Below, piece after piece: positions 3,632 to 39,062 of a DNA stretch of 64,000 nt; the stretch's first letter is position 1; every line of letters starts with the position of its first letter. The stretch covers positions 1 through 64,000 of the forward strand of contig CANNGA010000019.1 in assembly GCA_947504035.1 (NCBI GenBank), in the 5' to 3' direction. The notes below the pieces were generated by a model. That model saw only the letters and a program-made list of their open reading frames with translations. It ran no database searches and was not told the DNA's origin. Source of the DNA: an uncultured Flavobacteriaceae bacterium. GTDB lineage: Bacteria; Bacteroidota; Bacteroidia; Flavobacteriales; Flavobacteriaceae. A program made the translations under genes and the position numbers.

Positions 3632-5218
3632 ATGCAGTTTTTAAAAGAAATAGAAAGAAGACGTACGTTTGGTATCATATCACATCCAGATGCCGGAAAG
3701 ACAACACTCACAGAGAAACTCCTCCTTTTTGGAGGAGCCATACAAGAAGCAGGTGCTGTAAAAAGTAATAAAATAAAAAAGGGAGCCACTAGTGATTTCA
3801 TGGAAATTGAACGTCAACGTGGTATTTCTGTAGCGACTTCTGTTTTAGCGTTTGAATATAACACTATAAAAATCAATATCCTGGATACGCCTGGACATAA
3901 AGATTTTGCAGAAGATACTTTTAGAACCTTAACCGCTGTAGACAGTGTGATTGTTGTTATTGATGTAGCAAAGGGCGTTGAGGAACAAACCGAAAAGTTA
4001 GTAGAAGTTTGTCGCATGCGTAACATCCCTATGATTGTGTTCATTAATAAGTTAGATAGAGAAGGTAAAGATGCCTTTGATTTATTAGATGAAGTGGAAC
4101 AAAAATTAGGTTTAAAAGTAACGCCTTTAAGTTTTCCTATTGGTATGGGCTACGACTTTAAAGGTATTTATAATATTTGGGAAAAGAATGTTAATTTATT
4201 TAGTGGTGACAGTCGAAAAGATATTGAAGAAACTGTAGAAATTTCGGATTTAGCTTCGGATACATTAAATACATTAGTTGGTGAAGATGCTGCAGATACA
4301 CTTCGAGAAGAGATAGAATTGGTTGAGGGCATTTATCCTAAATTTGATAAAGCAGCCTATTTAGAAGGCAATTTACAGCCTGTATTTTTTGGATCTGCTT
4401 TAAATAATTTTGGGGTACGTGAATTGTTAGATTGTTTTGTAGACATCGCACCTAAGCCAAGACCAAAACACAGTGAAGAACGTTTAGTACGTCCTGATGA
4501 GCAAAAGTTTAGTGGGTTTGTTTTTAAAATTCATGCCAATATGGATCCTAACCATAGAAACAGATTGGCCTTTATAAAAATTGTATCTGGAGAATTTAAA
4601 CGCAACACACCTTACTTACACGTAAGGCATAATAAAAAGGTTAAATTTTCTAGTCCTAATGCTTTTTTTGCTGAAAAGAAAGAGATTGTAGACATATCCT
4701 ACCCTGGAGATATTGTAGGTTTACAAGATACTGGAACGTTTAAGATTGGAGATACCTTAACCGAAGGAGAACTCTTAAATTACAAAGGTATTCCTAGCTT
4801 TTCTCCAGAACATTTTAGGTACATTAATAATGCAGATCCTTTAAAATCTAAACAACTTTTTAAGGGTATAGACCAATTGATGGATGAAGGTGTTGCGCAA
4901 CTATTTACTTTAGAATTAAATGGGCGTAAAGTTATAGGTACTGTAGGAGCTTTACAATATGAAGTTATTCAATACCGCCTTGAGCATGAGTATGGTGCAA
5001 AGTGTACTTACGAAAATTTAAATGTTTACAAAGCATGTTGGATAGAACCTGAAGATCCTAAAAATGATGAGTTTAAAGAATTCTCTCGTGTCAAACAACG
5101 CTTTTTAGCCAAGGACAAACAAGACCAATTGGTATTTTTAGCAGATTCTGCCTTTTCGTTACAAATGACAGAACAAAAATATCCAAGTATCAAGTTTCAT
5201 TATGTTTCAGAATTCTAA
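3632..5218 (+). CDS. prfC: Peptide chain release factor 3 (RF3), translational GTPase
   Basis: The 528-residue product is the length of RF3 from other bacteria (529 in E. coli). RF3 is a class II release factor that recycles RF1/RF2 from the ribosome after termination, using GTP. The G domain shows the P-loop SHPDAGKTT at about 17-25, the RGISV switch region, DTPGHKDFAEDT and the NKLD specificity motif. The DPNHRNRLAF segment and the C-terminal domain 3 ending in SIKFHYVSEF are typical of RF3 rather than EF-G. The start MQFLKEIERRRTFGIISHP aligns with family starts; an upstream TTG would add seven residues and sits in the promoter. The gene stands alone. Confidence 0.96.
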   Translation: MQFLKEIERRRTFGIISHPDAGKTTLTEKLLLFGGAIQEAGAVKSNKIKKGATSDFMEIERQRGISVATSVLAFEYNTIKINILDTPGHKDFAEDTFRTLTAVDSVIVVIDVAKGVEEQTEKLVEVCRMRNIPMIVFINKLDREGKDAFDLLDEVEQKLGLKVTPLSFPIGMGYDFKGIYNIWEKNVNLFSGDSRKDIEETVEISDLASDTLNTLVGEDAADTLREEIELVEGIYPKFDKAAYLEGNLQPVFFGSALNNFGVRELLDCFVDIAPKPRPKHSEERLVRPDEQKFSGFVFKIHANMDPNHRNRLAFIKIVSGEFKRNTPYLHVRHNKKVKFSSPNAFFAEKKEIVDISYPGDIVGLQDTGTFKIGDTLTEGELLNYKGIPSFSPEHFRYINNADPLKSKQLFKGIDQLMDEGVAQLFTLELNGRKVIGTVGALQYEVIQYRLEHEYGAKCTYENLNVYKACWIEPEDPKNDEFKEFSRVKQRFLAKDKQDQLVFLADSAFSLQMTEQKYPSIKFHYVSEF

Positions 5219-6704: not shown

Positions 6705-9700
6705 TTAGTTAAAATTCATTTCTTGTTTAACCTGCATCATCTCATCAAACTCTTCTTTAGAGCCTACAATGATATCAGAATAATTTCTCATACCTGTACC
6801 TGCTGGAATTCTATGTCCAACAATTACGTTCTCTTTAAGGCCTTCAAGCGCATCTACCTTTCCTGCTACTGCTGCTTCGTTCAATACTTTTGTTGTTTCC
6901 TGGAACGATGCGGCAGAGATGAATGATTTGGTTTGAAGTGATGCTCTGGTAATACCTTGTAATATAGGTGTTGCCGTTGCTGGTTTTACATCTCTCGCTT
7001 CTACCAATTGTTTATCTTCACGTCTTAAGATAGAGTTCTCATCTCTTAATTGACGTGGTGTGATAATTTGACCTGCTTTAAGGTTTGTAGAATCTCCAGC
7101 ATCTTCAATCACTTTCATACCGAAAATATCGTCATTTTCTTTAATGAAATCTGCTTTATGTACCAATTGATCTTCTAAGAAGATGGTATCGCCAGAATCT
7201 ATAATTCTAACTTTACGCATCATTTGTCTTACAACAACCTCAAAGTGCTTATCATTAATCTTCACCCCTTGTAAACGGTATACTTCTTGTACTTCATTTA
7301 CTAAATATTGCTGTACCGCAGAAGGGCCTTTAATATTAAGGATGTCATTAGGTGTTATCGAACCATCTGATAATGGCATACCTGCTTTTACATAATCATT
7401 TTCTTGTACTAGAATTTGATTCGATAGTTTCACCAAGTACTTCTTAACTTCACCTAGTTTTGATTCCACTATAATCTCACGGTTACCGCGCTTAATTTTA
7501 CCAAATGATACCACACCATCAATCTCACTTACTACAGCTGGATTAGACGGGTTACGTGCTTCGAATAATTCTGTTACACGAGGAAGACCACCTGTAATAT
7601 CCCCTGCTTTTGCAGATTTACGTGGTATTTTCACTAAAATCTTACCAACCTTAATATCTTCTCCATCATCAATCATTAAGTGGGCACCTACTGGTAAGTT
7701 ATAAGAACGAATGGTTTCGCCTTTATTACTTTCAATATGTAATGTTGGAATTAACTTCTTATTTCTAGATTCTGAGATTACTTTTTCTTGGAACCCTGTT
7801 TGCTCATCAATCTCTACTTGATAGGTAATACCTTGTTCGATATTTTCATAGCGTACTTTACCAGCAAATTCTGAAATAATTACACCGTTATAAGGATCCC
7901 ACTGACATACAACATCGCCTTTCTTCAACTCTTGACCATTCTCTATAAAGATGGTAGAACCGTAAGGAATGTTATTCGTACTTAGCGTAAGTCCCATTTT
8001 CTTATCAACAAGTTTAATTTCAGATGTACGAGAAATTACAATATCAACGACATTGCCTTCGCTATCTTCTCCTTTAACTGTTTTAAGATCCTCAATTTCT
8101 GCAACACCGTCAAACTTCACGGCAAGCTTGTTATCTTCAGAAATGTTACCTGCAATACCACCTACGTGGAATGTACGTAAGGTTAACTGTGTACCTGGTT
8201 CTCCAATAGACTGCGCTGCTACTACACCTACAGCTTCACCACGTTGTACCATTTTACCTGTCGCTAAGTTACGTCCGTAACATTTTGCACAGATTCCTTT
8301 TACAGCTTCACAGCTTAATGGTGAGCGTACTTCTAAACTTTCGATTGGCGAAGCACCAATAGCCTTCGCTATTTTATCATCGATAAGTTGTCCTGAAGCT
8401 ACTAATAATTCTTCGGTTTGTGGATTGTAAGTGTCATTTAAAGCTACACGTCCAACGATACGTTCTTCTAAAGTTTCAACAACTTCATCATTCTTTTTAA
8501 GTGGTGTCACTTCAACACCTCTCAATGTACCACAGTCTACACTGTTTACAATAACATCTTGAGATACATCTACTAAACGACGTGTTAAGTACCCTGCATC
8601 TGCCGTTTTTAAGGCGGTATCGGCAAGACCTTTACGTGCACCGTGCGTTGAGATAAAGTATTCTAAAATTGAAAGTCCTTCTTTAAAGTTAGATAAAATT
8701 GGATTTTCAATAATCTCTCCACCACCTGCGTTAGATTTTTTAGGTTTCGCCATTAATCCACGCATACCTGTAAGCTGACGAATCTGTTCTTTAGATCCAC
8801 GTGCTCCAGAATCAAGCATCATAAACACCGAGTTAAATCCTTGTTGGTCTTCTCTAATACGCTTCATGGACAATTCTGTCAATTCTGCATTGGTAGACGT
8901 CCAAATATCAATAACCTGATTGTAACGCTCGTTATTGGTGATAAGTCCCATGTTATAGTTTCCAGTAATACCGTCTACTAATCCATTGGCTTTATCGATC
9001 ATAGATTGCTTCTCTGGTGGGATAATGATATCCCCTAAACTAAATGATAGTCCCCCTTGGAATGCAAAATTAAATCCTAATGTTCTAATGGCATCTAAGA
9101 AATCTGCTGTTTCTGGAACAGAAGTTACTTTAAGAATACCGTGTATAATATCTCTTAAAGATTTCTTAGTTAATACCTGATTGATATACCCTGCTGCTTG
9201 TGGTACGTGCTGGTTAAATAACACACGTCCTACAGTAGTAGTTACAATCATTCTATCTAATTTACCATCTTCATTAATGTCGATGGTTCTTACTTTAATT
9301 CCAGCATTTAAGTCTACGCGCTTTTCGTTAAAGGCTATTTCTACTTCCTCTGGAGAGTAGAACGTTAAACCTTCGCCTTTGATAGGCACTTCTGGTGTAG
9401 ACTTACGCTCTTTTGTCATATAGTATAACCCAAGTACCATATCCTGAGATGGTACTGTTACTGGCGAACCATTGGCTGGGTTTAATATGTTATGAGACGC
9501 TAACATTAACAACTGACATTCTAAAATAGCTTCAGGTCCTAATGGTAAGTGTACCGCCATTTGATCTCCATCGAAATCGGCGTTAAATGCTGTACATACT
9601 AATGGGTGTAACTGTATTGCTTTCCCTTCAATTAATTTGGGTTGGAACGCTTGTATACCCAAACGGTGTAAAGTAGGCGCACGGTTTAGTAATACGGGAT

Positions 9701-11006
9701 GGCCTTTCAACACATTCTCCAAAATATCCCAAACCACAGGCTCTCTTTTGTCTATAATTTTCTTTGCAGATTTTACAGTTTTTACAATACCTCTTTCGAT
9801 CAGTTTTCTGATGACAAAAGGCTTGTAAAGTTCTGCTGCCATATTTTTTGGCAATCCACATTCAAATAATTTTAATTCTGGTCCTACAACAATTACAGAA
9901 CGTGCTGAGTAATCCACACGCTTACCAAGTAAGTTTTGACGGAAACGACCTTGCTTTCCTTTAAGTGAATCTGATAATGATTTTAACGGACGGTTAGAAT
10001 CTGTTTTTACTGCAGATGATTTACGTGTGTTATCAAATAATGAATCTACAGATTCTTGTAACATACGTTTTTCATTACGCAAAATTACCTCTGGTGCTTT
10101 AATCTCTACCAAACGCTTTAAACGGTTGTTACGGATAATCACACGACGGTATAAATCATTCAAATCTGACGTTGCAAAACGACCACCATCTAATGGTACT
10201 AATGGACGTAATTCTGGTGGAATGATTGGAATAACTTTCATAATCATCCATTCTGGACGATTTTCACGGTTATTGTTAGATTCTCTTAAAGAACCTACTA
10301 CTTGTAAACGTTTTAAAGCCTCTGTTTTACGTTGCTTAGACGTTTCTGTATTGGCTTTGTGACGCAATTCGTAAGACAGCCCTTCTAAATCGATACGTGC
10401 TAATAAATCTATTAAACACTCTGCCCCCATCTTAGCGATGAATTTGTTAGGGTCTGTATCGTCTAAATATTGATTATCTTGAGGTAAATCCTCTAAAATA
10501 TTTAAATACTCTTCTTCTGTTAAGAAGTCCATTTTTTGCAATGGTTCTCCTTCTTCATTCTTTGCAGAACCTGGCTGGATCACTACGTAACGTTCGTAGT
10601 AAATAATCATATCTAATTTCTTAGATGGTAAGCCTAATAGGTATCCTATTTTGTTCGGTAACGAACGGAAGTACCATATGTGTGCTACAGGTACCACTAA
10701 ATTAATATGCCCTACACGATCGCGACGTACTTTCTTTTCTGTTACTTCAACACCACAACGGTCACATACAATACCTTTGTAGCGAATTCTTTTATATTTA
10801 CCGCAAGCACATTCATAATCCTTTACAGGACCAAAAATACGCTCACAAAACAAACCATCACGTTCTGGTTTGTGTGTTCGATAATTAATAGTTTCTGGTT
10901 TTAAAACTTCACCTCTAGACTCTGCTAAAATAGACTCTGGTGATGCTAAACCAATTGAGATTTTGTTAAATCTCTTTACTGTATTCTTATCTTGTTTTCT
11001 TGCCAT
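6705..11006 (-). CDS. rpoC: DNA-directed RNA polymerase subunit beta'
   Basis: The 1433-residue product is the catalytic beta' subunit of RNA polymerase. The N-terminal zinc-binding region ([20 protein letters not shown]) and the active-site motif NADFDGD, whose aspartates hold the catalytic magnesium, are intact. The trigger-loop region and the second zinc site (CGTLRG... CAKCYG) are present. The C-terminus ends with the conserved [17 protein letters not shown]. It is the last gene of the tuf-secE-nusG-rpl-rpo block, 73 bp after rpoB; that spacer is filled by a heptamer repeat. Length and motifs are normal for Bacteroidetes. Confidence 0.99.
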
Positions 11007-11014
11007 TTCTTTAT

Positions 11015-11073
11015 AGTATTCAGTATTCAGTGTTCAGTGCGCAGTGCCTACTGCTGACTGTTAACTGCTAACT
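11015..11073. repeat. Degenerate heptamer tandem repeat in the rpoB-rpoC spacer
   Basis: The plus strand reads as heptads AGTATTC, AGTATTC, AGTGTTC, AGTGCGC, AGTGCCT, ACTGCTG, ACTGTTA, ACTGCTA, ACT. The first half uses AGTnnnC units and the second half ACTGnnn units, so the array is also an imperfect palindrome that could fold as a long RNA hairpin. It occupies almost the entire spacer between the two polymerase genes. Confidence 0.85.
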
Positions 11074-11079
11074 ATTTTA

Positions 11080-14000
11080 TTATTCTTCTAATCTGATGTC
11101 TAATCCTAAACCTTTCAATTCATGCATTAATACATTGAAAGATTCTGGTAATCCTGGATCTGGCATTGGTTCACCTTTCACAATACTTTCGTATGTTTTG
11201 GCACGTCCAATTACATCATCAGATTTTACAGTTAAGATTTCACGTAACGTACTTGATGCGCCATAAGCTTCAAGTGCCCAAACTTCCATCTCACCAAAAC
11301 GCTGACCACCAAACTGTGCTTTACCACCTAATGGCTGTTGCGTAATTAATGAGTAAGGTCCTATAGAACGTGCGTGCATCTTATCATCTACCATGTGTCC
11401 TAGTTTCAGCATGTAAATCACACCTACTGTTGCAGGTTGATCAAAACGCTGTCCAGTACCACCATCGTATAGGTATGTATGTCCGTATCTTGGTATTCCA
11501 GCTTCATCTGTAAATCCGTTGATTTGATCTATAGTAGCACCATCAAAAATAGGGGTAGCATATTTGCGTCCTAATTTTTGTCCAGCCCATCCTAGTACCG
11601 TTTCGTAAATTTGTCCAATATTCATACGCGATGGTACCCCTAGTGGATTCAATACGATATCTACTGGTGTTCCGTCGTCTAAGAACGGCATGTCTTCTTG
11701 ACGTACAATACGTGCTACGATACCTTTGTTACCGTGACGTCCTGCCATCTTATCACCTACTTTAAGCTTACGTTTTTTAGCAATATAAACTTTTGCTAAC
11801 TTGATAATTCCTGAAGGCAACTCATCTCCTACAGAAATGGTGAACTTCTCGCGACGTAAGGCTCCTTGAAGGTCGTTTTCTTTAATTTTGTAGTTATGAA
11901 TAAGGTCTGCAACCAATTTGTTGGTATGCTCGTCTGTAGTCCACTTTCCAGATACTAAATGCGCATAATCATCTACTGCATTTAACATCTTTAATGTGAA
12001 TTTCTTGCCTTTTGGTAATACCTCTTCCCCTAAATCATTAAAGATCCCTTGAGCTGTTTTACCATTTACAATGGTGAACAACTTATCAATTAAAACATCT
12101 TTTAATTCGTCAAACTTTCTATCGTACTGCGCTTCTAAGGCTAAGATATCATCTTTATCTTGTGCGCGTTTACGCTTATCTTTTACTGCTCTAGCGAATA
12201 ATTTTTTCTCTATAACAACACCGTGTAACGATGGCGATGCTTTTAAAGACGCATCTTTTACATCTCCAGCTTTATCTCCAAAGATGGCACGTAATAATTT
12301 TTCTTCTGGTGTAGGGTCTGATTCTCCTTTTGGTGTGATCTTACCTATAAGGATATCTCCTGGTTTTACTTCGGCACCAATACGAATCATTCCGTTTTCA
12401 TCTAAGTCTTTTGTAGCCTCTTCAGAAACATTAGGAATATCGTTAGTCAACTCTTCATTACCTAATTTTGTATCTCTTACTTCTAGAGAATACTCATCGA
12501 TATGAATTGATGTAAAGATATCTTCACGTACTACTTTTTCAGAAATTACAATCGCATCCTCAAAGTTATACCCTTTCCAAGGCATAAAGGCTACTTTCAT
12601 ATTTCTACCTAAAGCTAATTCTCCCATTTGGGTCGCATAACCTTCTGATAGTACTTGTCCTTTTTTAACTTTATCGCCTTTCTTAACAATAGGCTTTAAG
12701 TTGATAGACGTTCCTTGGTTTGTTTTTCTAAACTTCACCAAGTTATACGTTTTCACATCGCTATCAAAACTTACTTTAGCTTCGTCTTCGCTACGATCGT
12801 ATCTAATCTGTATTTCATTAGCATCTACATACAAGACTTCTCCTGTACCTTCTGCATTAATTAATACTCTAGAGTCTGAAGCGACTTGACGTTCTAAACC
12901 TGTTCCTACAATTGGTGCATCTACTCTTAATAATGGTACGGCTTGACGCATCATGTTAGATCCCATCAAAGCACGGTTGGCATCATCATGTTCCAAAAAT
13001 GGAATTAAAGATGCAGATATTGAAGAAATCTGGTTAGGAGCAACATCTGTATAATGAATCTCTTTAGGATCTATTACAGGGAAATCGCCTTCCATACGTG
13101 CAATTACCTTATCGTGTAAGATCTTACCATCTTCATCTACTTTTACGGTAGCCTGCGCGATTAACTTCTCTTCTTCTTCTTCTGCACTTAAATATGTTGG
13201 TGCATTTTTAATATCTACAACACCTTCTGTTACTTTACGGTATGGTGTTTCAATGAAGCCCATTGAATTCACCTTAGCAAATACTGAAAGTGATGATATT
13301 AAACCAATATTCGGTCCTTCTGGTGTTTCAATAGGACAAAGTCTTCCGTAGTGTGTATAATGTACATCACGTACCTCGAACCCTGCGCGTTCTCTTGAAA
13401 GACCACCTGGTCCTAATGCCGATAAACGACGCTTGTGTGTGATCTCTGCTAATGGATTTGTTTGGTCCATAAACTGAGATAACTGATTCGTTCCAAAGAA
13501 TGAATTAATAACAGACGATAACGTCTTCGCATTAATTAAATCTATTGGTGTAAATACCTCGTTGTCACGCACATTCATACGTTCGCGAATGGTACGCGCC
13601 ATACGTGCTAAACCAACACCAAACTGAGATGATAATTGCTCACCTACGGTACGTACACGACGGTTAGATAAGTGGTCAATATCATCAATCTCTGCTTTAG
13701 AGTTGATTAACTCAATTAAATATTTAATAATAGTAATGATATCTTCTTTGGTAAGCACTTGCTTATCCATTCCAATATCAAGACCTAATTTTTTATTCAT
13801 TCTATAACGCCCTACTTCTCCTAAAGAGTAACGTTGGTCACTAAAGAATAATTTATCTATAATACCACGTGCTGTTTCCTCATCTGGCGGCTCTGCATTA
13901 CGTAGTTGTCTGTATATATGTTCAACAGCCTCTTTTTCTGAGTTTGTTGGATCTTTTTGAAGCGTATTGTGGATAATGGCATAATCCCCTTGTTCGTTCG

Positions 14001-29675: not shown

Positions 29676-32600
29676 ATGGCTTTAAAAGTAGTGATTTCAC
29701 ATAAAACCGTATATAAATACGATAGAAGCGTAAATTTATCACCCCATATTTTCAGATTAAGACCTGCGCCACACAGCAGAACTCCTATAGAATCTTATGC
29801 TCTAAAAATCACTCCAGAAAATCATTTTTTTAATTGGCAACAAGATCCCTTTGGAAATTATCAAGCAAGGGTTATTTTTCCTGAAAAGACAAAAACACTT
29901 TCTATTGCTGTAGAAATTGTAGCGGACTTAAAAACCATTAATCCTTTTGATTTTTTTATTGAAAAAAGTGCTGAAGAGTATCCTTTTGAGTATACCGACA
30001 TTGTAAAAAAGGAATTGACCCCATATTTAGAAATAAACGATAAAGGGGAACAATTTGATGCTTTTATAGAGACGATAGATTACACGCCGAGAAAAACGAT
30101 TTATTTTTTAATAGACCTTAATCGAAAAATTTACGAATACCTTAGTTATAACATAAGACTACAACCAGGAGTACAAACTTCTGAAGAAACCTTAGCTTGT
30201 AAAACAGGATCTTGTAGAGATTATGCGTGGCTTTTTGTACAGGTGTTAAGACATCTTGGTTTTGCTGCACGGTTTGTATCTGGTTATATTGTGCAATTAA
30301 GTCCAGACGAACCTTCTTTAGATGGACCTTCGGGACCTGCTGAAGATTTTACAGATCTTCACGCTTGGACAGAAGTCTATCTGCCTGGAGCAGGTTGGAT
30401 TGGTCTTGATCCCACCTCAGGATTATTTGTAGGCGAAGGGCATATTCCCTTATCGTGCACCCCACATTATGAAAGTGCCGCTGCCGTAACAGGCATGTCT
30501 GATCCTTGTGAAACAGAATTTGAATTTAGCAACTCTGTAACCCGTATTCTAGAATCGCCAAGGGTTACAAAACCCTATACAGACGACCAATGGAAAGCCA
30601 TCTATAAAGTAGGGACTAAAGTTGAAAGAGATTTACAAAAAGGTGATGTTCGTCTTACTATGGGGGGCGAGCCTACCTTTGTATCTATAGATGATATGGA
30701 AGCTGCAGAATGGAACACCGCTGCCGATGGCCCTCATAAACGCGCACTCGCCAACACACTTACCAAACGCTTACTTCATAAAGTAGCCAAAGGCGGCATG
30801 TTGCATCATGCGCAGGGCAAATGGTACCCTGGAGAGCCTTTACCACGTTGGGAAATTCAATTGTATTGGCGAAAAGATGGTAAAAAAATATGGCATAACG
30901 AACACTTACTCTCTGCATTCTCTCCAAATCCTATGGTAAAAGAAGGGAGCGACTTGCTCTTTTTACAAACACTAAGCACCTATTTAGACGTCTCTTTAGA
31001 TTATATTATACCCGCTTATGAAGATGCCTTTTATATGCTTTGGGAACAGGGTAATCTGCCTGTAGACATCGACATTACTAAAGAAGGTAGTAAAGATTTA
31101 GTCACACAACGACTCGCACAAATATTAGAACAAGGCACGCATAAAGCTGTAGGCCATGTACTGCCTTTAAACAAATCTGGAGACCAATGGTTTTCTAGCA
31201 CGTGGTACTTTAGAAGACAGCACTTGCTTTTAACACCTGGTACATCGCCTTTAGGTTTAAGACTCCCTTTATCGAGCTTAGCTACGAAACCAGAATACGG
31301 TGTTTTTCCAGTGTATGAGCCAGACTTATTTAAGGAACGTAAAGCCTTACCGAGTTTTAAACGCGCCGTAAACCTACGTTACAAATCGGTTTTGGCTAAC
31401 GGGATTAGTACAGACAAACCCAAATACTTCGTTAAAACAGCTATTTCTGCAGAAATAAGAGATCAAAAGCTGTATTTATTCTTACCGCCTTTAGACGGTA
31501 TAGACGCCTTTTTAGATCTTATTGCAGCTATAGAAGCCACAGCCAAACACTTAAACATTCCTGTAATTCTAGAGGGGTATAACCCACCTCACGATAACAG
31601 AATTGAATCGATGAAAATTACGCCAGACCCTGGTGTGATCGAAGTTAATGTACACCCTATCTCTAATTGGGAAGATCTTGTTGCAAATACGTTTACCTTA
31701 TATGACGAAGCTAAAAAATCGCGTTTGGGTACCGAAAAATTCATGTTAGACGGGAAGCATACGGGAACTGGTGGAGGAAATCATGTAACGCTAGGGGGGA
31801 TTACCCCTGCCGACAGCCCTTTACTTAGAAAACCTAGTTTGCTAAGAAGTCTACTCACATTTTGGCAGCACCATCCGGGACTGTCCTATTTATTCTCGGG
31901 AGCTTTTGTGGGAGCTACGAGTCAGGCGCCTCGAATTGACGAAGCCCGAATGGAAAATTTATATGAGTTAGAAATTGCATTTAGCCAAATCCCTAAAGGT
32001 GGAGACGTGCCTTTTTGGCTCACCGACCGGCTATTTAGACACTTGCTTACAGATTTAACAGGAAATACGCACCGTGCCGAATTCTGTATTGATAAATTAT
32101 ACTCCCCAGACTCGTCTTCTGGCCGTTTGGGTATTTTAGAACTTCGGGGGTTCGATATGCCGCCACATGCTAAAATGAGTCTCGTACAAATGCTATTGGT
32201 ACGGGCGTTGGTAGCTTGGTTCTGGAAAAAACCTTACGAACATGATTTGGTACGATGGGGTACAGAACTTCATGACAAATTCCTTATTGAACACTACGTA
32301 CGTCAAGATATCAAAGACGTTGTGAAACAATTAAACAGAGCCGGATATAAATTTGAAGCCGATTGGTTCGATCCGTTTTTCGAATTTAGATTTCCACTAC
32401 ATGGTATGGTCGATATCGAGGATATCCATTTAGAATTAAGAGCAGCCATAGAACCTTGGAATGTTTTAGGAGAAGAAATGACCGGTGGTGGTACCGCCCG
32501 CTATGTGGATTCCTCTTTAGAACGCCTGCAGGTAAAAGTCTTTAATTTCACTCCAGAACGTTATGTGCTCACTTGTAATGGCGTTAAGATCCAATTGCAA

Positions 32601-33011
32601 CCTACAGGCACTAAAGGCGAATACGTTGCTGGTGTGAAATACAAAGCTTGGGATCCTCATTCTGCGCTTCACCCTACAATAGGTGTGGATACACCTTTAT
32701 CCTTTGATATTGTAGACACCTGGAATAGAAAATCTATTGGGGGTTGTAAATATTTCGTTGCACATCCTGGAGGGCGTTCTTACGATACTTTTCCTGTGAA
32801 TAGTTATGAAGCTGAGTCGAGACGTATCAACAGGTTTTGGGATATTGGTGAAGTACAAACTGAAGTCGATATTATTGAAGAAGTTAATGCGAATGATGTA
32901 AATTCGCCACTTAGAACGGTAACGGAAAGTGGGAGCCAACGCAAATATAGATTTAAAACAATTCCTGTTGATCCCGAATTTCCAAATACCTTAGATTTAC
33001 GTAAGAAATAA
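29676..33011 (+). CDS. Transglutaminase-like protein fused to DUF2126
   Basis: The 1111-residue product starts with a bacterial transglutaminase N-terminal beta domain (about 1-90) and a papain-fold transglutaminase core with the triad Cys180 (TGSCRDYAW), His229 (DLHAWTEVY) and Asp245 (GLDPTSG). From about residue 320 it continues as DUF2126, with MGGEPTF at 329-335 and TGTGGGNHVTLGG near 696-708. The Gly-rich histidine motif and LELRGFDMPPH recall ligases of the glutamine-synthetase fold; that link is my inference, helped by recollection of comparative work by Aravind's group on amidoligases. There is no signal peptide, so it is cytoplasmic. It heads a three-gene operon (10-bp and 9-bp gaps). 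In this family the papain fold may act as a peptidase or amidase rather than a crosslinker. Confidence 0.92.
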   Translation: MALKVVISHKTVYKYDRSVNLSPHIFRLRPAPHSRTPIESYALKITPENHFFNWQQDPFGNYQARVIFPEKTKTLSIAVEIVADLKTINPFDFFIEKSAEEYPFEYTDIVKKELTPYLEINDKGEQFDAFIETIDYTPRKTIYFLIDLNRKIYEYLSYNIRLQPGVQTSEETLACKTGSCRDYAWLFVQVLRHLGFAARFVSGYIVQLSPDEPSLDGPSGPAEDFTDLHAWTEVYLPGAGWIGLDPTSGLFVGEGHIPLSCTPHYESAAAVTGMSDPCETEFEFSNSVTRILESPRVTKPYTDDQWKAIYKVGTKVERDLQKGDVRLTMGGEPTFVSIDDMEAAEWNTAADGPHKRALANTLTKRLLHKVAKGGMLHHAQGKWYPGEPLPRWEIQLYWRKDGKKIWHNEHLLSAFSPNPMVKEGSDLLFLQTLSTYLDVSLDYIIPAYEDAFYMLWEQGNLPVDIDITKEGSKDLVTQRLAQILEQGTHKAVGHVLPLNKSGDQWFSSTWYFRRQHLLLTPGTSPLGLRLPLSSLATKPEYGVFPVYEPDLFKERKALPSFKRAVNLRYKSVLANGISTDKPKYFVKTAISAEIRDQKLYLFLPPLDGIDAFLDLIAAIEATAKHLNIPVILEGYNPPHDNRIESMKITPDPGVIEVNVHPISNWEDLVANTFTLYDEAKKSRLGTEKFMLDGKHTGTGGGNHVTLGGITPADSPLLRKPSLLRSLLTFWQHHPGLSYLFSGAFVGATSQAPRIDEARMENLYELEIAFSQIPKGGDVPFWLTDRLFRHLLTDLTGNTHRAEFCIDKLYSPDSSSGRLGILELRGFDMPPHAKMSLVQMLLVRALVAWFWKKPYEHDLVRWGTELHDKFLIEHYVRQDIKDVVKQLNRAGYKFEADWFDPFFEFRFPLHGMVDIEDIHLELRAAIEPWNVLGEEMTGGGTARYVDSSLERLQVKVFNFTPERYVLTCNGVKIQLQPTGTKGEYVAGVKYKAWDPHSALHPTIGVDTPLSFDIVDTWNRKSIGGCKYFVAHPGGRSYDTFPVNSYEAESRRINRFWDIGEVQTEVDIIEEVNANDVNSPLRTVTESGSQRKYRFKTIPVDPEFPNTLDLRKK

Positions 33012-33021
33012 ATACATCCCA

Positions 33022-35574
33022 ATGAACGCTGAAGTTGAATCGCTAACAGACACTTATTTTAATTCTGATGCTTATGATGAAATGTTTGAACCAGACATGA
33101 CGATCAAAGCTCCTTGGAACAATTTTTATCAAAATTTCAAAGATTTAGGTTGTGACGAACTCATATCCCGACAAAAAGAAATCGATTGGAATCTGTCTGA
33201 GAATGGAATTACCTATAACGTTTATAACGACCCTAATGGCTTAAACCGTCCTTGGAATTTAAACATCATTCCCTTTATAATGCACAAAAAGGAATGGGAA
33301 GAGGTAGAACGTGGTTTAAAGCAACGTGTGCATTTGTTAGACTTAGTCGTTAAAGATATTTATGGTGAACGTCAACTTTTAAAAAAAGGGATATTACCTC
33401 ATGAAGTCATCTTTGGGCATCGCGGTTTCTTGAGACAATGCGATGGGATTAGCCTAAACACTGAAAAATACTTATCGGTGTATGCAGCAGATTTATCTCG
33501 AGGGCCCGATGGTAGAATGTGGATGGTTAATGACAGGGTACAAACACCATCTGGCATGGGCTACTCTTTAGAAAATAGAACTGTAATTAGTAGCGTTTTA
33601 CCACAGATATACAAGCAAAATGCGATTACAGATCAGGATGGCTTTTTTAATAATTTCAATCAGCTTTTAGTCGATGCTGCTCCTAACAAGATCCAAAACC
33701 CTAATATTGTAGTTTTAACTCCTGGCCCTCATAACGAGACTTATTTTGAACATGCCTATTTGGCCTCCTATTTTGGCTATCCTCTAGTTAGAGGTAGTGA
33801 TTTATTGGTAAGAGACGGCAAGTTATGGATGAAGTCTTTGAAAGCCTTAAAACAAATTGATGTGGTGTACCGAAGGGTAGATGACATCTTTGTTGATCCT
33901 CTCGAATTACGAGAAGATTCGTATTTAGGTGTAGCGGGCTTACTAGATGTGGTACGCCGCAAAAATGTAAGTATTGTGAATCCTGTTGGCGTTGGTGTTA
34001 TTGAAAACTCGGGACTTATCCCGTTTATGCCAGCTATTGCCAAGTTTTTTTTAGATGAAAAACTTATTTTACCACAAATCGCAACATGGTGGTGCGGCCA
34101 GAAAAAGGAATTAGATCATGTTATCGCTAATATTTCTAAATTGGTGATTAAGCGTATTGACCGTTCTAGTAGAGAAACAATTGTCTTTACCGAATTTTTA
34201 AGTCCTGAAGCTCTAGAGGCTTTAATTCTCAAAATAAAAAACAAACCGCATTTGTACGTTGCTCAAGAAAAAATCACCTTTTCTACAGCGCCTAACTTTA
34301 CTAAAGGGAAGTTAGAACCCCGAAATATGGTTTGCAGAGCCTTTGCCATTGCCAATAAAGACCATTACGACATCATGTCTGGTGGTTTGGTGCGTGTCTC
34401 TTCTACCGAAGATGTGCGCGTAAGCAACCAACGCGGCGGTACCAGTAAAGATTTTTGCATTATAGATGAAACTTATAAAAAAACACGAAAGTCTAACTAC
34501 TTTAATAGTTTTTCTTCAAATGCGACCGAACTTAGTGATTTACCCAGCCTAACTGCCGAAAATCTCTACTGGGCGGGGCGTTATGTTGGTAGGGCCTTAA
34601 TTACTAGCAGACATTTACGTACCGTTTTAAAAGAAGTTGCTAATAGTGATACGGCAATTGATTTGAAAGCAGACAATAAAATCACCACCTTATTACAAAC
34701 CATCACTCAACTTACAAATGCGTATCCAGGCTTTATAGGTTCTAAAGGCGAACCTATGGTAAGTGATGTTAAAAAAGAACTCATTGCTTTAGTTGTTGAT
34801 AAAACAAAATCTGGAAGCTTGGCGCATACCATTTCTATGTTTAGCAATTCGTATTATTCGATTCGTAATTTATGGTCTACAGACATGTGGCGTGTTTTTG
34901 ATAGTATCCACAAATTATGGAATCCTATACTTAAAGAAGCTACAGACAATTTAAGCTACAAACGTATTATCAAAGTACTAGATCAATTAATTACTAGAAT
35001 TATTGCCTTTATGGGCTTAATTGAAGAAAGTATCCTTGTAGAACAAGGCCTTCTACTCTACTTTATTGGTCTTAATTTAGAGCGTGCTATCTTAAATACT
35101 ACCAGTTACCAAAGTATGTTAACCATTGCTACTGAAGAACACGTTGAATATGAAATTTTAGAAGCTATGCTGCACAGCCATGAAAGCTTAAATATTTACA
35201 GGTATAGCTACCGTTCTCATATTAACATAGAATCTGTACTTTCTCTTGTGCTCCTTAATACGAAATACGCGCGCTCGCTTACCTTTTTGGTAGGGCGACT
35301 TAAAAAAGACATCAGCCGTTTGCCACACTCTAAAATAGATGCTGGTCTACAGGATTACGAAAAAGCCATTTTTGAAGCCTATTCTAAACTAAGATTGTCC
35401 TCTACCCAAACATTAGCACTAGTCTCTGAAGAACAAACTCAAGAAAGAGTCGCATTAGAAACACTTTTAACAGAGCTTAAAGCCTTGTTCTATGATACCA
35501 CTAAGGCTATTGCCGATACGTATTTCAATCACAGTAAAGACCAAAACCAATTAACCTTACAAAATTTTAGCTAG
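33022..35574 (+). CDS. Circularly permuted ATP-grasp protein fused to an alpha-E domain
   Basis: The 850-residue product joins a type 2 circularly permuted ATP-grasp domain (about 25-480; landmarks VYAADLSRGPDGR, QTPSGMGYSLENRT, VLTPGPHNETYFEHAYL, VDVVYRRVDD) to an alpha-helical alpha-E/DUF403 domain (about 508-830; landmarks ENLYWAGRYVGRA and GLNLERA). Compared with the other ATP-grasp in this window, the nucleotide loop is changed: LVIKRIDRSSRETIVF at 374-388 lacks the GGYG turn, and NQRGGTSKDF replaces SSQGGGSKDTW. In the alpha-E part, YVGRA replaces YIERS. Reduced or altered catalysis is possible, or this may simply be the norm of the fused subfamily. It lies between two transglutaminase genes. 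Confidence 0.92.
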   Translation: MNAEVESLTDTYFNSDAYDEMFEPDMTIKAPWNNFYQNFKDLGCDELISRQKEIDWNLSENGITYNVYNDPNGLNRPWNLNIIPFIMHKKEWEEVERGLKQRVHLLDLVVKDIYGERQLLKKGILPHEVIFGHRGFLRQCDGISLNTEKYLSVYAADLSRGPDGRMWMVNDRVQTPSGMGYSLENRTVISSVLPQIYKQNAITDQDGFFNNFNQLLVDAAPNKIQNPNIVVLTPGPHNETYFEHAYLASYFGYPLVRGSDLLVRDGKLWMKSLKALKQIDVVYRRVDDIFVDPLELREDSYLGVAGLLDVVRRKNVSIVNPVGVGVIENSGLIPFMPAIAKFFLDEKLILPQIATWWCGQKKELDHVIANISKLVIKRIDRSSRETIVFTEFLSPEALEALILKIKNKPHLYVAQEKITFSTAPNFTKGKLEPRNMVCRAFAIANKDHYDIMSGGLVRVSSTEDVRVSNQRGGTSKDFCIIDETYKKTRKSNYFNSFSSNATELSDLPSLTAENLYWAGRYVGRALITSRHLRTVLKEVANSDTAIDLKADNKITTLLQTITQLTNAYPGFIGSKGEPMVSDVKKELIALVVDKTKSGSLAHTISMFSNSYYSIRNLWSTDMWRVFDSIHKLWNPILKEATDNLSYKRIIKVLDQLITRIIAFMGLIEESILVEQGLLLYFIGLNLERAILNTTSYQSMLTIATEEHVEYEILEAMLHSHESLNIYRYSYRSHINIESVLSLVLLNTKYARSLTFLVGRLKKDISRLPHSKIDAGLQDYEKAIFEAYSKLRLSSTQTLALVSEEQTQERVALETLLTELKALFYDTTKAIADTYFNHSKDQNQLTLQNFS

Positions 35575-35583
35575 CCTAAGACT

Positions 35584-36477
35584 ATGGATTTTTTAATCAC
35601 ACACATTACTGAATATAGTTATAACGAACCCGTTGTCTTTTGTCATAATATAGCCACCATTAAACCCCGTGTTTCTGCTGGTCAAACTATTTTAGAATAC
35701 GCTATTGATATTGCACCTCAACCGACGCAATTTTCTGAACGCTCAGATTTTTTCGGGAATAACATTACCCGTTTTTCAATAGAAAAAGAGCATGAAAAAT
35801 TAACCGTGGTCTCTAAGTGCAAAATTAAGCGCGATTACACGGCTATTAAAGACAGTTTCTTCTCTAAAAAATGCACGGCCATTACTTTAGAAAACGCATT
35901 GGAAACTTTAAATCTTAATGCGCCTAATAACTTTGATTCTAAACAATTTATATTAGATTCTATTTTAATCCGGAACAGTAAACCTAATATTAAAGCTTAT
36001 GCATTGGCATCTTTTAAGCCCAATCGCTCTGTTTTTGAGGCTACCAATGAATTAATGCAGCGCATATACACCGATTTTAAATTTGTATCGGGCTTTACAA
36101 GTGTGTCTACGCCTTTGGATGTTGTTATGGAAGAGAAAAAAGGGGTCTGTCAAGATTTTGCACAAGTTGCTATTGCCTGTTTAAGAAGTGTGGGGCTTCC
36201 TGGGCGTTATATTAGTGGGTATATTGAAACATTACCGCCCCCTGGGAAACCTAAACTGGTAGGTGCAGATGCATCTCATGCTTGGTTTGCTGTGTTTATT
36301 CCTGGGTTTGGTTGGGTAGATTTCGACCCTACTAATAACAAAATTCCAGAGAACCAGCATATTGTAGTGGGTTGGGGTAGAGATTATTACGACGTACCTC
36401 CTCTAAAAGGCGTGGTTTACAGTTCGGGGAGAAGTAGTCTTAAAGTCTCTGTTGATATAAAGGCACTAGGGAACTAA
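35584..36477 (+). CDS. Transglutaminase-like protein (second copy, short)
   Basis: The 297-residue product has the N-terminal beta domain (FLITHITEYSYNEPVVFCHN) and a transglutaminase core with Cys189 (KGVCQDFAQ), His232 (ASHAWFAVFIPG) and Asp248 (VDFDPTNN). It ends with the family tail RDYYDVPPLKGVVY. No signal peptide is present. It is the last gene of the plus-strand operon and converges on the 26-codon frame of the minus-strand set. Confidence 0.93.
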   Translation: MDFLITHITEYSYNEPVVFCHNIATIKPRVSAGQTILEYAIDIAPQPTQFSERSDFFGNNITRFSIEKEHEKLTVVSKCKIKRDYTAIKDSFFSKKCTAITLENALETLNLNAPNNFDSKQFILDSILIRNSKPNIKAYALASFKPNRSVFEATNELMQRIYTDFKFVSGFTSVSTPLDVVMEEKKGVCQDFAQVAIACLRSVGLPGRYISGYIETLPPPGKPKLVGADASHAWFAVFIPGFGWVDFDPTNNKIPENQHIVVGWGRDYYDVPPLKGVVYSSGRSSLKVSVDIKALGN

Positions 36478-36549: not shown

Positions 36550-36630
36550 CTACTGCTGTTGCTGCTGTTGAATAATTGCTATTTGGGCGGCTTCTGTTAC
36601 CGTTTTAGGTTGTTGTGGTGCTTCTTCCAT
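36550..36630 (-). CDS. Candidate 26-residue Gln-rich peptide, translationally coupled to alpha-E
   Basis: The ATG at 36630-36628 shares one base with the alpha-E stop codon (TAATG), a classic coupling arrangement. The frame runs 26 codons to a double stop TAGTAG. The predicted product begins MEEAPQQPK, continues TVTEAAQIAII and ends in six glutamines; nine of 26 residues are Gln and there is one Lys (position 9). The six terminal codons are two copies of CAACAGCAG. A T-rich stretch follows at 36531-36541. I do not recognise the peptide. Its coupling to ATP-grasp and alpha-E genes and its Gln content suggest a substrate or leader for amide-forming or transglutaminase enzymes next door; this is inference. 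It could also be a chance frame, since TAATG is frequent in AT-rich DNA. Confidence 0.5.
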   Translation of the reverse strand: MEEAPQQPKTVTEAAQIAIIQQQQQQ

Positions 36631-37586
36631 TAGGATTCAATATAAAAAAATTCCTTTTGCATTTTTTTACTTATCTTAAATAAGTTTTCTAGTATTTTCT
36701 CGATAAAGGTTCTAAAATCTACTTCTATTTCTTCGGTATATTTATATTGGTATTCTGTATATACCTTGTTTACTAAAAATGCTGTAGAATCTTTAGAGGG
36801 TTTCTTTTCATTAGAGAGAAACTCGATATGTCTTGATATTTCAGAAAGGCTGTTTATTACAGATCGAGGACATTTTGGGTTTAAAATTAAAAACTCTAAG
36901 GTGTTATAACTTTTAGGGCTTTCCTTTTCATAACGCATCATCATATCGTACGATTCTACACAGCGTAATAAAGTCGACCATTCTAGCACTGGCGACACTA
37001 AAAAACCTTTTTCTTTTTTTAATTCTATAGCTTGAATGTCTATATATTTAGAATGAATGATACGGATTACCTGCGTGGCGCGTTCCATATTCACCCCTAA
37101 TTTTATCACAGAAAACACTTCGTCATAAAGTAAAGTGCTTCTAATTTTGGCCTTAGTGATTGCTGTGAATTCCATAACATTACTGGTAAATTCATACAGG
37201 CCTCGCTTCACCAAATGATCTACAGAATAGTTCAGTACAAAATGGTAAAATTTATTTATAGCTTCATACAATTCTGTAGAAATTAAATCTCTTGCACTAT
37301 GGGCATTTTCACGTGCAAGCTTAACAGCATTAATTATAGAATACCTTTTATCTGGGTTTAATGTAATGTTATACAACACATCGGCCTCAATCACAAGTTC
37401 TCCTTCTTTACAAGGATCTCCTACCATAAACATTAAAGACTTAAGTACAAAGTCTCGAGACTGAGACAACTCATCGGGTGCATCTAATGATGAAAAATAA
37501 TTCACCCTTAAATATCTTGCAACATGTTCTGAACGTTCAATATATCTGCCCATCCAAAATAAATTATTAGCGACTCTTGCTAGCAT
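36630..37586 (-). CDS. Alpha-E domain protein (DUF403), stand-alone
   Basis: The 318-residue all-helical product has the family start MLARVANNLFWMGRYIERSEHVARYL and the repeated signature LGVNMERATQVIRII. Alpha-E proteins accompany type 2 circularly permuted ATP-grasp proteins in many bacteria and are thought to support an uncharacterised peptide or amide ligation; no enzymatic activity is established. The start is 6 bp after the ATP-grasp stop. The stop overlaps the start of the Gln-rich reading frame. The conserved Glu of YIER, lost in the fused paralogue, is present here. Confidence 0.93.
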   Translation of the reverse strand: MLARVANNLFWMGRYIERSEHVARYLRVNYFSSLDAPDELSQSRDFVLKSLMFMVGDPCKEGELVIEADVLYNITLNPDKRYSIINAVKLARENAHSARDLISTELYEAINKFYHFVLNYSVDHLVKRGLYEFTSNVMEFTAITKAKIRSTLLYDEVFSVIKLGVNMERATQVIRIIHSKYIDIQAIELKKEKGFLVSPVLEWSTLLRCVESYDMMMRYEKESPKSYNTLEFLILNPKCPRSVINSLSEISRHIEFLSNEKKPSKDSTAFLVNKVYTEYQYKYTEEIEVDFRTFIEKILENLFKISKKMQKEFFYIES

Positions 37587-37592
37587 ATACCT

Positions 37593-39062
37593 CTACTTTT
37601 TTAAAACCCAAGTATCTTTGGATCCTCCTCCTTGTGAAGAATTTACAATTAAATTTCCTTTTTTTAAAGCAACTCTGGTCAAACCACTTTTTAGCACATA
37701 ACTCTTATTTTCACCTAATAATGTAAATGTGCGAAGGTCGACATGCCTTGGCTCAAAAGACTTTTCATCTTCAATATAAGTGGCATGTACAGACAGCGCC
37801 ATTATAGGTTGCGCGATATATTTTCTAGGGTGTTCTAAAATGGTAGCCTTTACGGCTTCTATTTCTGTATCCGTTAATTTATTTCCTATAGAAATTCCAT
37901 ATCCTCCTGCTTCATCCACAGGCTTTATAACTAGGCTTTTAATATTATCTAACACATACTCCAAATCCTTAGGATCACTACAGTGATAGGTATGCACATT
38001 CTTTAATATGGGGGTTTCTTTTAAATAATAGTCTATAATTTGCGGCATATAGGTATAGATGGCCTTATCGTCTGCCACGCCAGTCCCTGGTGCATTTACC
38101 AAACAAACATTTCCTTTTTTATAGGCAGAAAACAACCCTGGTACACCCAATACCGAATCGGGATTAAAGACTTCGGGGTCTAAAAAACTATCGTCTATAC
38201 GTCTATAGATCACATCAACCTTTTCGGGACCATTTATTGTACGCATGTAAACAAAATGGTTCTCTACAAAAAGATCTCTTCCTTCTACAAGTTCTACCCC
38301 CATCCCTTTGGCCAAATACGAATGCTCGTAATAGGCAGAATTAAAAACGCCTGGCGTAAGCACGACACATATGGGTTTATCTACGCCTTTAGGCTTTACA
38401 GTTTCTAAAATGCTTAGTAAATTCTCAGAATAATCTGTTACCGTGTGTATCTTATATTTATCGAAGACACCAAATAATGCTCTTTTAAGCGTGGTACGGT
38501 TGCATATCACATAGCTCACTCCCGAAGGACATCTAATATTATCTTCTAGTACATAATAAGCCCCATCTGAATGTTTGATTAAGTCTGTTCCAGAAATATG
38601 ATTATAAATCCCCCCTGGAGGATCGAATCCCTTCATTTCTTTAAGGTAATTTGAGGAAGAGTCTATAAGCGCTTTAGGCACGATGCCGTCTTTTATGATA
38701 TTTTGATCGTGGTATAAATCCTTTAAAAAAAGGTTCAATGCTTTGCTACGCTGCAACACCCCCTTTTCGATATGTTCCCACTCTTCGTGATCTATAATTC
38801 TAGGAAATAAATCGAATGGAAATATCTTTTCTTTAGTCTCGTTATTGCCGTAAACTTGAAACGTAATCCCTTGATTAAAAAAAGAGGTCTTAGCATATTC
38901 GTTTAAAGCCTCGAAATCCATAACGCTATGACTTCCGTAAAGATCAAATAACGTTTTGTAAATAGCTTTTACATCATTGTTTTCATCAAACACTTCATCC
39001 AAAATATCTTTATCGAAAGTATAAGAAGAAAAAATAGGCAAGTCTTTATGCATAAGGTACAT
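37593..39062 (-). CDS. Type 2 circularly permuted ATP-grasp protein, canonical
   Basis: The 489-residue product contains all family landmarks: EDNIRCPSGVSYVICNRT (173-190), LTPGVFNSAYYEHSYLA, VDVIYRRIDDSFLDP, the ATP-binding segment SLVIKPVDEAGGYG with Lys380 and the Gly turn at 386-389, EPRHVDLRTF (437-446) and SSQGGGSKDTW (475-485). ATP-grasp enzymes activate a carboxylate as acyl phosphate and join it to an amine; the substrates of this family are unknown. It is first in the minus-strand set and cotranscribed with alpha-E. An ATG at codon 4 is an alternative start. Confidence 0.94.
   Translation of the reverse strand: MYLMHKDLPIFSSYTFDKDILDEVFDENNDVKAIYKTLFDLYGSHSVMDFEALNEYAKTSFFNQGITFQVYGNNETKEKIFPFDLFPRIIDHEEWEHIEKGVLQRSKALNLFLKDLYHDQNIIKDGIVPKALIDSSSNYLKEMKGFDPPGGIYNHISGTDLIKHSDGAYYVLEDNIRCPSGVSYVICNRTTLKRALFGVFDKYKIHTVTDYSENLLSILETVKPKGVDKPICVVLTPGVFNSAYYEHSYLAKGMGVELVEGRDLFVENHFVYMRTINGPEKVDVIYRRIDDSFLDPEVFNPDSVLGVPGLFSAYKKGNVCLVNAPGTGVADDKAIYTYMPQIIDYYLKETPILKNVHTYHCSDPKDLEYVLDNIKSLVIKPVDEAGGYGISIGNKLTDTEIEAVKATILEHPRKYIAQPIMALSVHATYIEDEKSFEPRHVDLRTFTLLGENKSYVLKSGLTRVALKKGNLIVNSSQGGGSKDTWVLKK

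Follow-up and report, generated by a model that had tools for sequence, protein, structure and literature searches.

Which role might a glutamine-rich peptide of 26 residues play immediately downstream of an alpha-E gene? The question is raised by a short open reading frame of the window, i.e., the whole stretch of 64,000 nucleotides from an uncultured Flavobacteriaceae bacterium analysed in this work. An earlier note on this DNA had pointed to the frame, considering it to be translationally coupled to the alpha-E gene and its product to be a possible substrate of the enzymes encoded nearby. The frame exists as it was claimed: located on the minus strand at positions 36550..36630 (26 codons plus stop), it encodes MEEAPQQPKTVTEAAQIAIIQQQQQQ, whose 26 residues comprise nine Gln and one Lys, and it is closed by a double stop (TAG TAG). 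Six glutamine codons (CAA CAG CAG CAA CAG CAG; 36553..36570, minus strand) form a terminal run flush with the TAG stop, and at the other end of the frame the last base of the alpha-E stop codon TAA (36630..36632, minus strand) is also the first base of the peptide ATG (TAATG).

The enzymatic context attributed to the frame was borne out by Pfam, which recognised an alpha-E protein, a circularly permuted ATP-grasp and two facing proteins of the transglutaminase (TGase) fold. The alpha-E protein (318 aa; 36630..37586, minus strand; PF04168) adjoins the circularly permuted ATP-grasp (489 aa; 37593..39062, minus strand; PF14403/PF04174), as in the Anbu-type operon. The convergent operon, on the plus strand, embeds a TGase-DUF2126 putative amidoligase of 1111 aa (29676..33011), an ATP-grasp/alpha-E fusion of 850 aa (33022..35574) and, as its last gene, a TGase-fold protein of 297 aa (35584..36477), the C-terminus of which has no Gln run of its own. 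A solved relative of the circularly permuted ATP-grasp is available (3n6x, E 1.1e-148). The model of the alpha-E protein is all-helical, with a mean pLDDT of 89.4; a Foldseek search of this fold against the PDB returned no match at E 0.001 or better, and the best VIA-align score (Z 9.1, rmsd 6.1 over 225 residues) falls in the range expected of (chance) helical bundles. Of the eight proteins compared with NCBIfam none received a name, the single match lying far below the cut-off.

According to the available text of PMC5666114, descriptions of the ATP-grasp/alpha-E/TGase operon, in which Anbu, a relative of the proteasome, is often included, date from 2008-2009, and a role in tagging or peptide synthesis was proposed for the four-gene Anbu operon (Iyer et al. 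2009, as cited in the portions of PMC5666114 and PMC6376114 considered here). A paper of 2017 stated, in the portion considered, that the published hypotheses on the role of the operon were unconfirmed (PMC6376114), and the two papers together point to a lack of known substrates (PMC5666114, PMC6376114). The window set and the Anbu-type operons share the ATP-grasp and alpha-E families and the TGase fold. However, in the window the peptide replaces the TGase directly 3' of alpha-E, the TGase genes being placed in the convergent operon, and neither a Gln tail nor a dedicated peptide is mentioned for Anbu-type operons in those portions of the two papers (PMC5666114, PMC6376114). Anbu itself was retrieved in 0/8 of the peptide-bearing genomes, in a search run without a positive control. 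Among the openly licensed papers listed by our searches there was no description of such a peptide or tail. The stronger finding of this work goes beyond the positions indicated in the note: a C-terminal Gln tail is recurrent and mostly conserved in this system, in the lineages sampled, and it has become a separate peptide in one clade.

The distribution of the frame among relatives was analysed through an alpha-E scan of genome contigs, in which 80 loci from 208 relatives were kept. A short frame that closes with a Gln run and starts at most 73 nt after alpha-E was found in 6/80 loci; these are exactly the loci in which alpha-E is about 75% or more identical, and among the 74 others (identity of 66% or less) none has such a frame after alpha-E. 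A family search in 397 genomes, from the parsed rows of which L102 was left out, added one further species (L098/L128), its three other matches repeating known loci. The peptide is therefore counted in eight genomes (the window and seven others), and all those found with an alpha-E about 75% or more identical carry a frame of 26-29 codons. The seven additional peptides are MALEQQQTQNRTTTDTDMEALQQAQQQQQ (L018), LEEARHQKDKFTLSEVNKVKQQQAQQQQ (L019, with a TTG start only), MKEALQQHQKVSEENSESIRQQQAQQQQQ (L020), MKKALMQSNNITEADESLIQQQQQQQQ (L021), MNESRMQSICVTDANEELINQQQQQQQ (L022), MQEAIQQIQKVTDEEQNLINQQQQQLQQ (L023) and MDKARMQSTLITNADAELINQQQQQQQ (L128). Carriers of the peptide that bear a species name include Aquimarina agarivorans HQM9, Tamlana fucoidanivorans CW2-9, Algibacter mikhailovii KCTC 12710 and Maribacter vaceletii DSM 25230. 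All eight peptides have at least four Gln in their last six residues, in a run flush with the stop. The distance from the alpha-E stop to the peptide start is -1, +1, +8, +10, +33, +65, +70 or +73 nt; since it varies to this extent, only some of the members can be regarded as coupled. Thus, the overlap on which the idea of translational coupling was based is real in the window, but it is not general.

When the whole genome (4.23 Mb) was scanned for five CAR codons with TRR directly behind them, the peptide gene was the single place to match. When frames of 12-120 codons were considered in the window and in the loci then collected, with known duplicates set aside, at least six Gln in the final eight residues were found only in the window frame and in its relatives 3' of alpha-E in the seven other genomes. 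L174, a locus added later, contains one more Gln-ended short frame, different in kind, in which the end of the TGase gene of that locus is copied. This copy (5050-5121, plus strand) is a recent DNA duplication with a GTG start and 22 codons, ending in six Gln; we regard it as an accident which shows how a loose tail can arise, and do not count it as support.

In sister operons the gene following alpha-E is a TGase whose C-terminus carries a Gln run flush with the stop. Among 88 distinct TGases of this operonic class, 84 end in Gln, 74 in at least two and 34 in at least three; the corresponding values for background frames of at least 250 codons in the same loci are 12/503, 2/503 and 0/503. For the assignment to this class, each TGase was compared by BLAST with references lacking their last 25 residues and its best match was taken, duplicates being removed; the count predates, and hence excludes, loci L258-L269, and adjacency to alpha-E was checked singly only for L207-L236, ten of the plasmid loci and L258-L269. 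In a class that we called broad, which includes the tail-less L008 as well as L203, whose annotated record names no transglutaminase, at least three Gln close the protein in 34/39 cases. A wider search of 395 Bacteroidota genomes gave 42 matches in 38 genomes: the best 30 of the 42, retrieved by a query that itself had the tail, all end in at least three Gln and all have an alpha-E match just upstream, and over the whole search at least three terminal Gln were found in 30 out of the 38 TGases adjoining alpha-E. The tail extends to proteobacteria, where seven of nine distinct TGases from plasmid records end in Gln, as QQAQQQ in Klebsiella, as QQQ in Aeromonas and Limimaricola and as a single Gln in Burkholderia, Caballeronia and two Paracoccus; the other two, from Acinetobacter and Methylobacterium (L202), have no terminal Gln. 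The length of the tail ranges from one to more than ten Gln. According to the model of L040, a TGase with a tail, the final strand extends as far as residue 281 and takes in the first Gln residues, and residues 283-285 have a pLDDT below 50, as would be expected of a protruding end.

Two further scans are in agreement with this distribution. Twenty-two whole genomes were searched for five Gln codons with a stop directly behind them, and the pattern turned up 21 times. The six distinct matches that close a frame of at least 100 codons all belong to TGases; a further five correspond to the peptides, one follows immediately on a TGase tail, and the remaining nine are short frames due to chance, of which one has no true stop. 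The peptides of L019 and L023 miss this strict pattern because their runs are interrupted. In 270 records (2.50 Mb, duplicates included), frames of at most 110 codons closed by four Gln codons plus stop proved to be either peptides or the L174 duplicate, or else chance frames not exceeding 57 codons, the L023 peptide being absent, again because of its interrupted run.

The idea of a universal tail had to be rejected, since the 12 remaining matches of the wider search are all devoid of it. In L261 and L263-L269 (families f31 and f51 of the same phylum) the TGases adjoin an alpha-E match, a partial one in L269, but have no Gln tail, and they represent a natural contrast group for tail function. 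The TGases of L258, L259, L260 and L262 are also without a tail, and no separate alpha-E partner lies within the stretch; three of these four loci are without any alpha-E match, and in L259 alpha-E is embedded in a frame of more than 600 codons, like the fusion of the facing trio of genes. The plasmid TGases L186 and L187 have neither a tail nor an alpha-E within about 4 kb on either side. The four TGases out of 88 that do not end in Gln are of the Leeuwenhoekiella type (L073, L089, L090 and L124); in these the Gln run is followed by a short non-Gln extension, which may reflect processing or side-chain chemistry, and in L014, too, a few other residues come after the run. In modules without a TGase after alpha-E, a Gln-rich end was found on five linked TGases (L160, L161, L164, L166 and L167), and no tail was found within the stretch examined in L162, L163 and L165. 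In the convergent module of L164 the alpha-E protein itself (8762-9799, minus strand) is extended by a Lys-rich stretch that terminates in KKKTQSQTQ, and a QS repeat closes the facing TGase.

The TGases of the facing, trio type end in at least two Gln in only 2/42 cases (L166 and L167). The Cys, His and Asp columns are invariant in an alignment of 27 operonic and trio TGases; because the trio enzymes have the same three residues and mostly lack the tail, the tail tracks the TGase beside a separate ATP-grasp/alpha-E pair and not TGase activity as such. The comparison of these loci shows a peptide gene that is conserved, constrained at the protein level and placed in the position of the Gln-tailed TGase of sister operons, and a tail that, with exceptions, accompanies the separate ATP-grasp and alpha-E pair, either attached to the TGase or free. 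Such a piece behaves as a substrate or a docking piece rather than as a structural element of the TGase fold, which points to a working part of the system and perhaps to its substrate.

On this basis, we propose that the peptide is a free-standing version of the C-terminal oligoglutamine tail of the sister-operon TGases, serving as a handle for the ATP-grasp/alpha-E ligase, a reading to which we assign a probability of about one in two. ATP-grasp enzymes are carboxylate activators. The ligase would act on the tail as on a handle: ATP would activate the C-terminal carboxylate of the tail, or a deamidated Gln side chain, which would then be joined to an amine, and the TGase-fold enzymes might subsequently trim, transfer or deamidate the product. 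The handle would be borne by the TGase itself in most species and by a diffusible peptide in this clade. For the peptide, a role as covalent substrate or carrier is, we infer, likely, transglutaminase chemistry with the tail as donor being one of the two ways in which it might be realised. The tentative and broader suggestion, somewhat less probable than an even chance, is that the oligoglutamine tail might be the missing substrate of ATP-grasp/alpha-E/transglutaminase (and Anbu) systems as a whole: a ribosomally made handle that, among the bacteria sampled, would be borne in cis by the TGase of most Bacteroidota and of several proteobacteria, and be released as a dedicated peptide of 26-29 residues in one Flavobacteriaceae clade, forming a further prokaryotic carrier- or tag-peptide system distinct from the Pup, LysW and PEARL scaffolds.

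Some analogies with known systems might be drawn. Pup is a small peptide tag with a Gly-Gly-Gln/Glu C-terminus; the peptides described here are also small and end in Gln, but 8/8 do so without a preceding Gly-Gly, and they are far shorter than Pup. Precedents for the proposed ligase step would be RimK acting on RpsF and the loading of carrier peptides elsewhere. RimK is not known to belong to the circularly permuted type or to have an alpha-E. It is an ATP-grasp enzyme that adds Glu at the C-terminus of the ribosomal protein RpsF (available text of PMC12239564); the likeness lies in an ATP-grasp enzyme acting on a protein C-terminus, and the difference in the ribosomal nature of its substrate. 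In PEARL carrier peptides and LysW-type amino-group carriers the C-terminal residue is activated by ATP and loaded via an amide bond (portions of PMC9303977 and PMC11962472 considered here). The resemblance to the role proposed for the peptide would be that of a small peptide or protein carrier, but the ligase belongs here to another family by Pfam and the Gln-run tail is mostly attached to the TGase.

Several findings have to be counted against the proposal. The Yersinia bercovieri ATP-grasp was reported to release phosphate from ATP with no stimulation by free glutamine or glutamate (available text of PMC6376114). To this must be added the 8/38 tail-less TGases, the loci L162, L163 and L165, and the proteobacterial ends with a single Gln or none. 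The non-terminal runs (Leeuwenhoekiella type and L014) fit poorly with a chemistry of the last carboxylate and argue against a strict need for it.

Those same internal runs are retained although they are not terminal, which would suit a different chemistry, in which the tail is the acyl donor of the transglutaminases: a thioester would form with its Gln side chains, which would be passed to lysines or small amines in a cross-linking or tagging reaction. This was the role envisaged by the earlier note, and both the invariant Cys, His and Asp of the 27 aligned operonic and trio TGases and the mostly multi-Gln nature of the runs are in agreement with it. Yet at least two terminal Gln occur in just two of the 42 trio TGases, the plasmid TGases L186 and L187 (no alpha-E within about 4 kb on each side) have no tail, and side-chain chemistry does not need a run flush with the stop, which the run nearly always is. 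We consider the acyl-donor role possible, but rather unlikely. As the trio TGases are mostly tail-less, a role with the ATP-grasp/alpha-E pair is therefore at least as likely as the one proposed in the note.

The constancy of the end after a variable linker might also be read in a non-covalent sense, the tail being a docking motif, i.e., a short Gln-ended helix that binds alpha-E or ATP-grasp and assembles or regulates the complex. By eye, many tails and peptides show hydrophobic residues ahead of the Gln run, as in short linear motifs, and a docking tail is easily detached by evolution. On the other hand, the tail is of variable length (one to more than ten Gln) and, as a run of low complexity, would make an unusual docking surface, and co-purification in Y. 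bercovieri with Anbu as bait gave no specific interaction according to the available text of PMC6376114, the alpha-E/TGase pair standing outside that test. Docking is, in our opinion, likewise possible, but rather unlikely.

The pattern of substitution bears on whether the peptide is a true gene product. Of the 48 codons that make up the last six positions of the eight peptides, 44 encode Gln, through both CAA and CAG. When every pair of sequences is compared, the differences add up to 26/26/87 at codon positions 1/2/3; in the heads of the three members that align without gaps dN is 0.29-0.33 versus a dS of 1.2-1.8, and in their tails the changes are mostly synonymous, the ratio being rough because the codons are few and dS is saturated over the tail. 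These data indicate, at the level of sequence, that the peptide is under protein-level constraint and that the Gln run is its most strongly kept part. The frame is unbroken in 8/8 close relatives, the window included, and so withstood the comparative part of the refutation set out in the note. It starts with ATG in 7/8; an in-frame stop lies at most three codons 5' of the start in 7/8, L020 alone being open, for 13 codons upstream. This last finding led us to reject, as a general explanation, a frameshift fusion of the tail onto alpha-E.

The same data make it very improbable that an operonic TGase gene was lost here and that the frame is the decaying, functionless relic of its 3' end, even if the frame holds the position of the sister-operon TGase, the alpha-E tree (midpoint root only) nests the peptide clade among TGase-bearing operons, and loose tail copies do arise, as in the 22-codon duplicate of L174: a remnant would hardly be constrained as a protein, unbroken in all eight genomes, and provided with an ATG in seven and with a nearby upstream stop in seven. 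Explanations by chance, by a DNA repeat or by an RNA element, which the capacity of CAR repeats to expand and the shortness of the interval might have suggested, were rejected as scarcely credible, given the turnover between CAA and CAG with Gln kept and always flush with the stop, and the presence of the frame in 6/80 loci, exactly the nearest by alpha-E. The window frame is confirmed, as far as comparison of genomes goes, as a real gene and not a product of chance. Of the peptide reading of the note, the part that stood is that of a conserved micro-gene of the set in which the Gln run is the best kept portion; the idea that the run is special to the peptide did not stand, the same run being also a TGase tail.

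A tail that also stands alone is a concrete, assayable part of the enzyme system. The peptide is small enough to be synthesised and offered to purified enzymes, and the TGase tail could be removed by one early stop codon; if the tail were the substrate, an enzyme system that occurs here in both Bacteroidota and Pseudomonadota would become accessible to biochemistry.

As regards the history of the set, the alpha-E proteins of the eight peptide genomes form one clade (support 100/100), and the convergent enzyme set is common to all eight loci, that of L019 being cut by the contig end. The FtsX and NamZ proteins flanking the window set have no match beside the other seven sets. Maribacter vaceletii (L023) falls inside the peptide clade, whereas the other Maribacter of the alpha-E tree fall outside it, with a TGase-type operon; therefore, the set was probably transferred between species. 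In L019 two small frames (10457-11112, plus strand) lie between the peptide and the TGase and resemble, by eye, an inserted pair of antitoxin and PIN-type toxin. Lastly, one alpha-E match (G396:C25:14874-15818) contains one internal TAG; the gene may be broken, or the match may extend beyond the stop.
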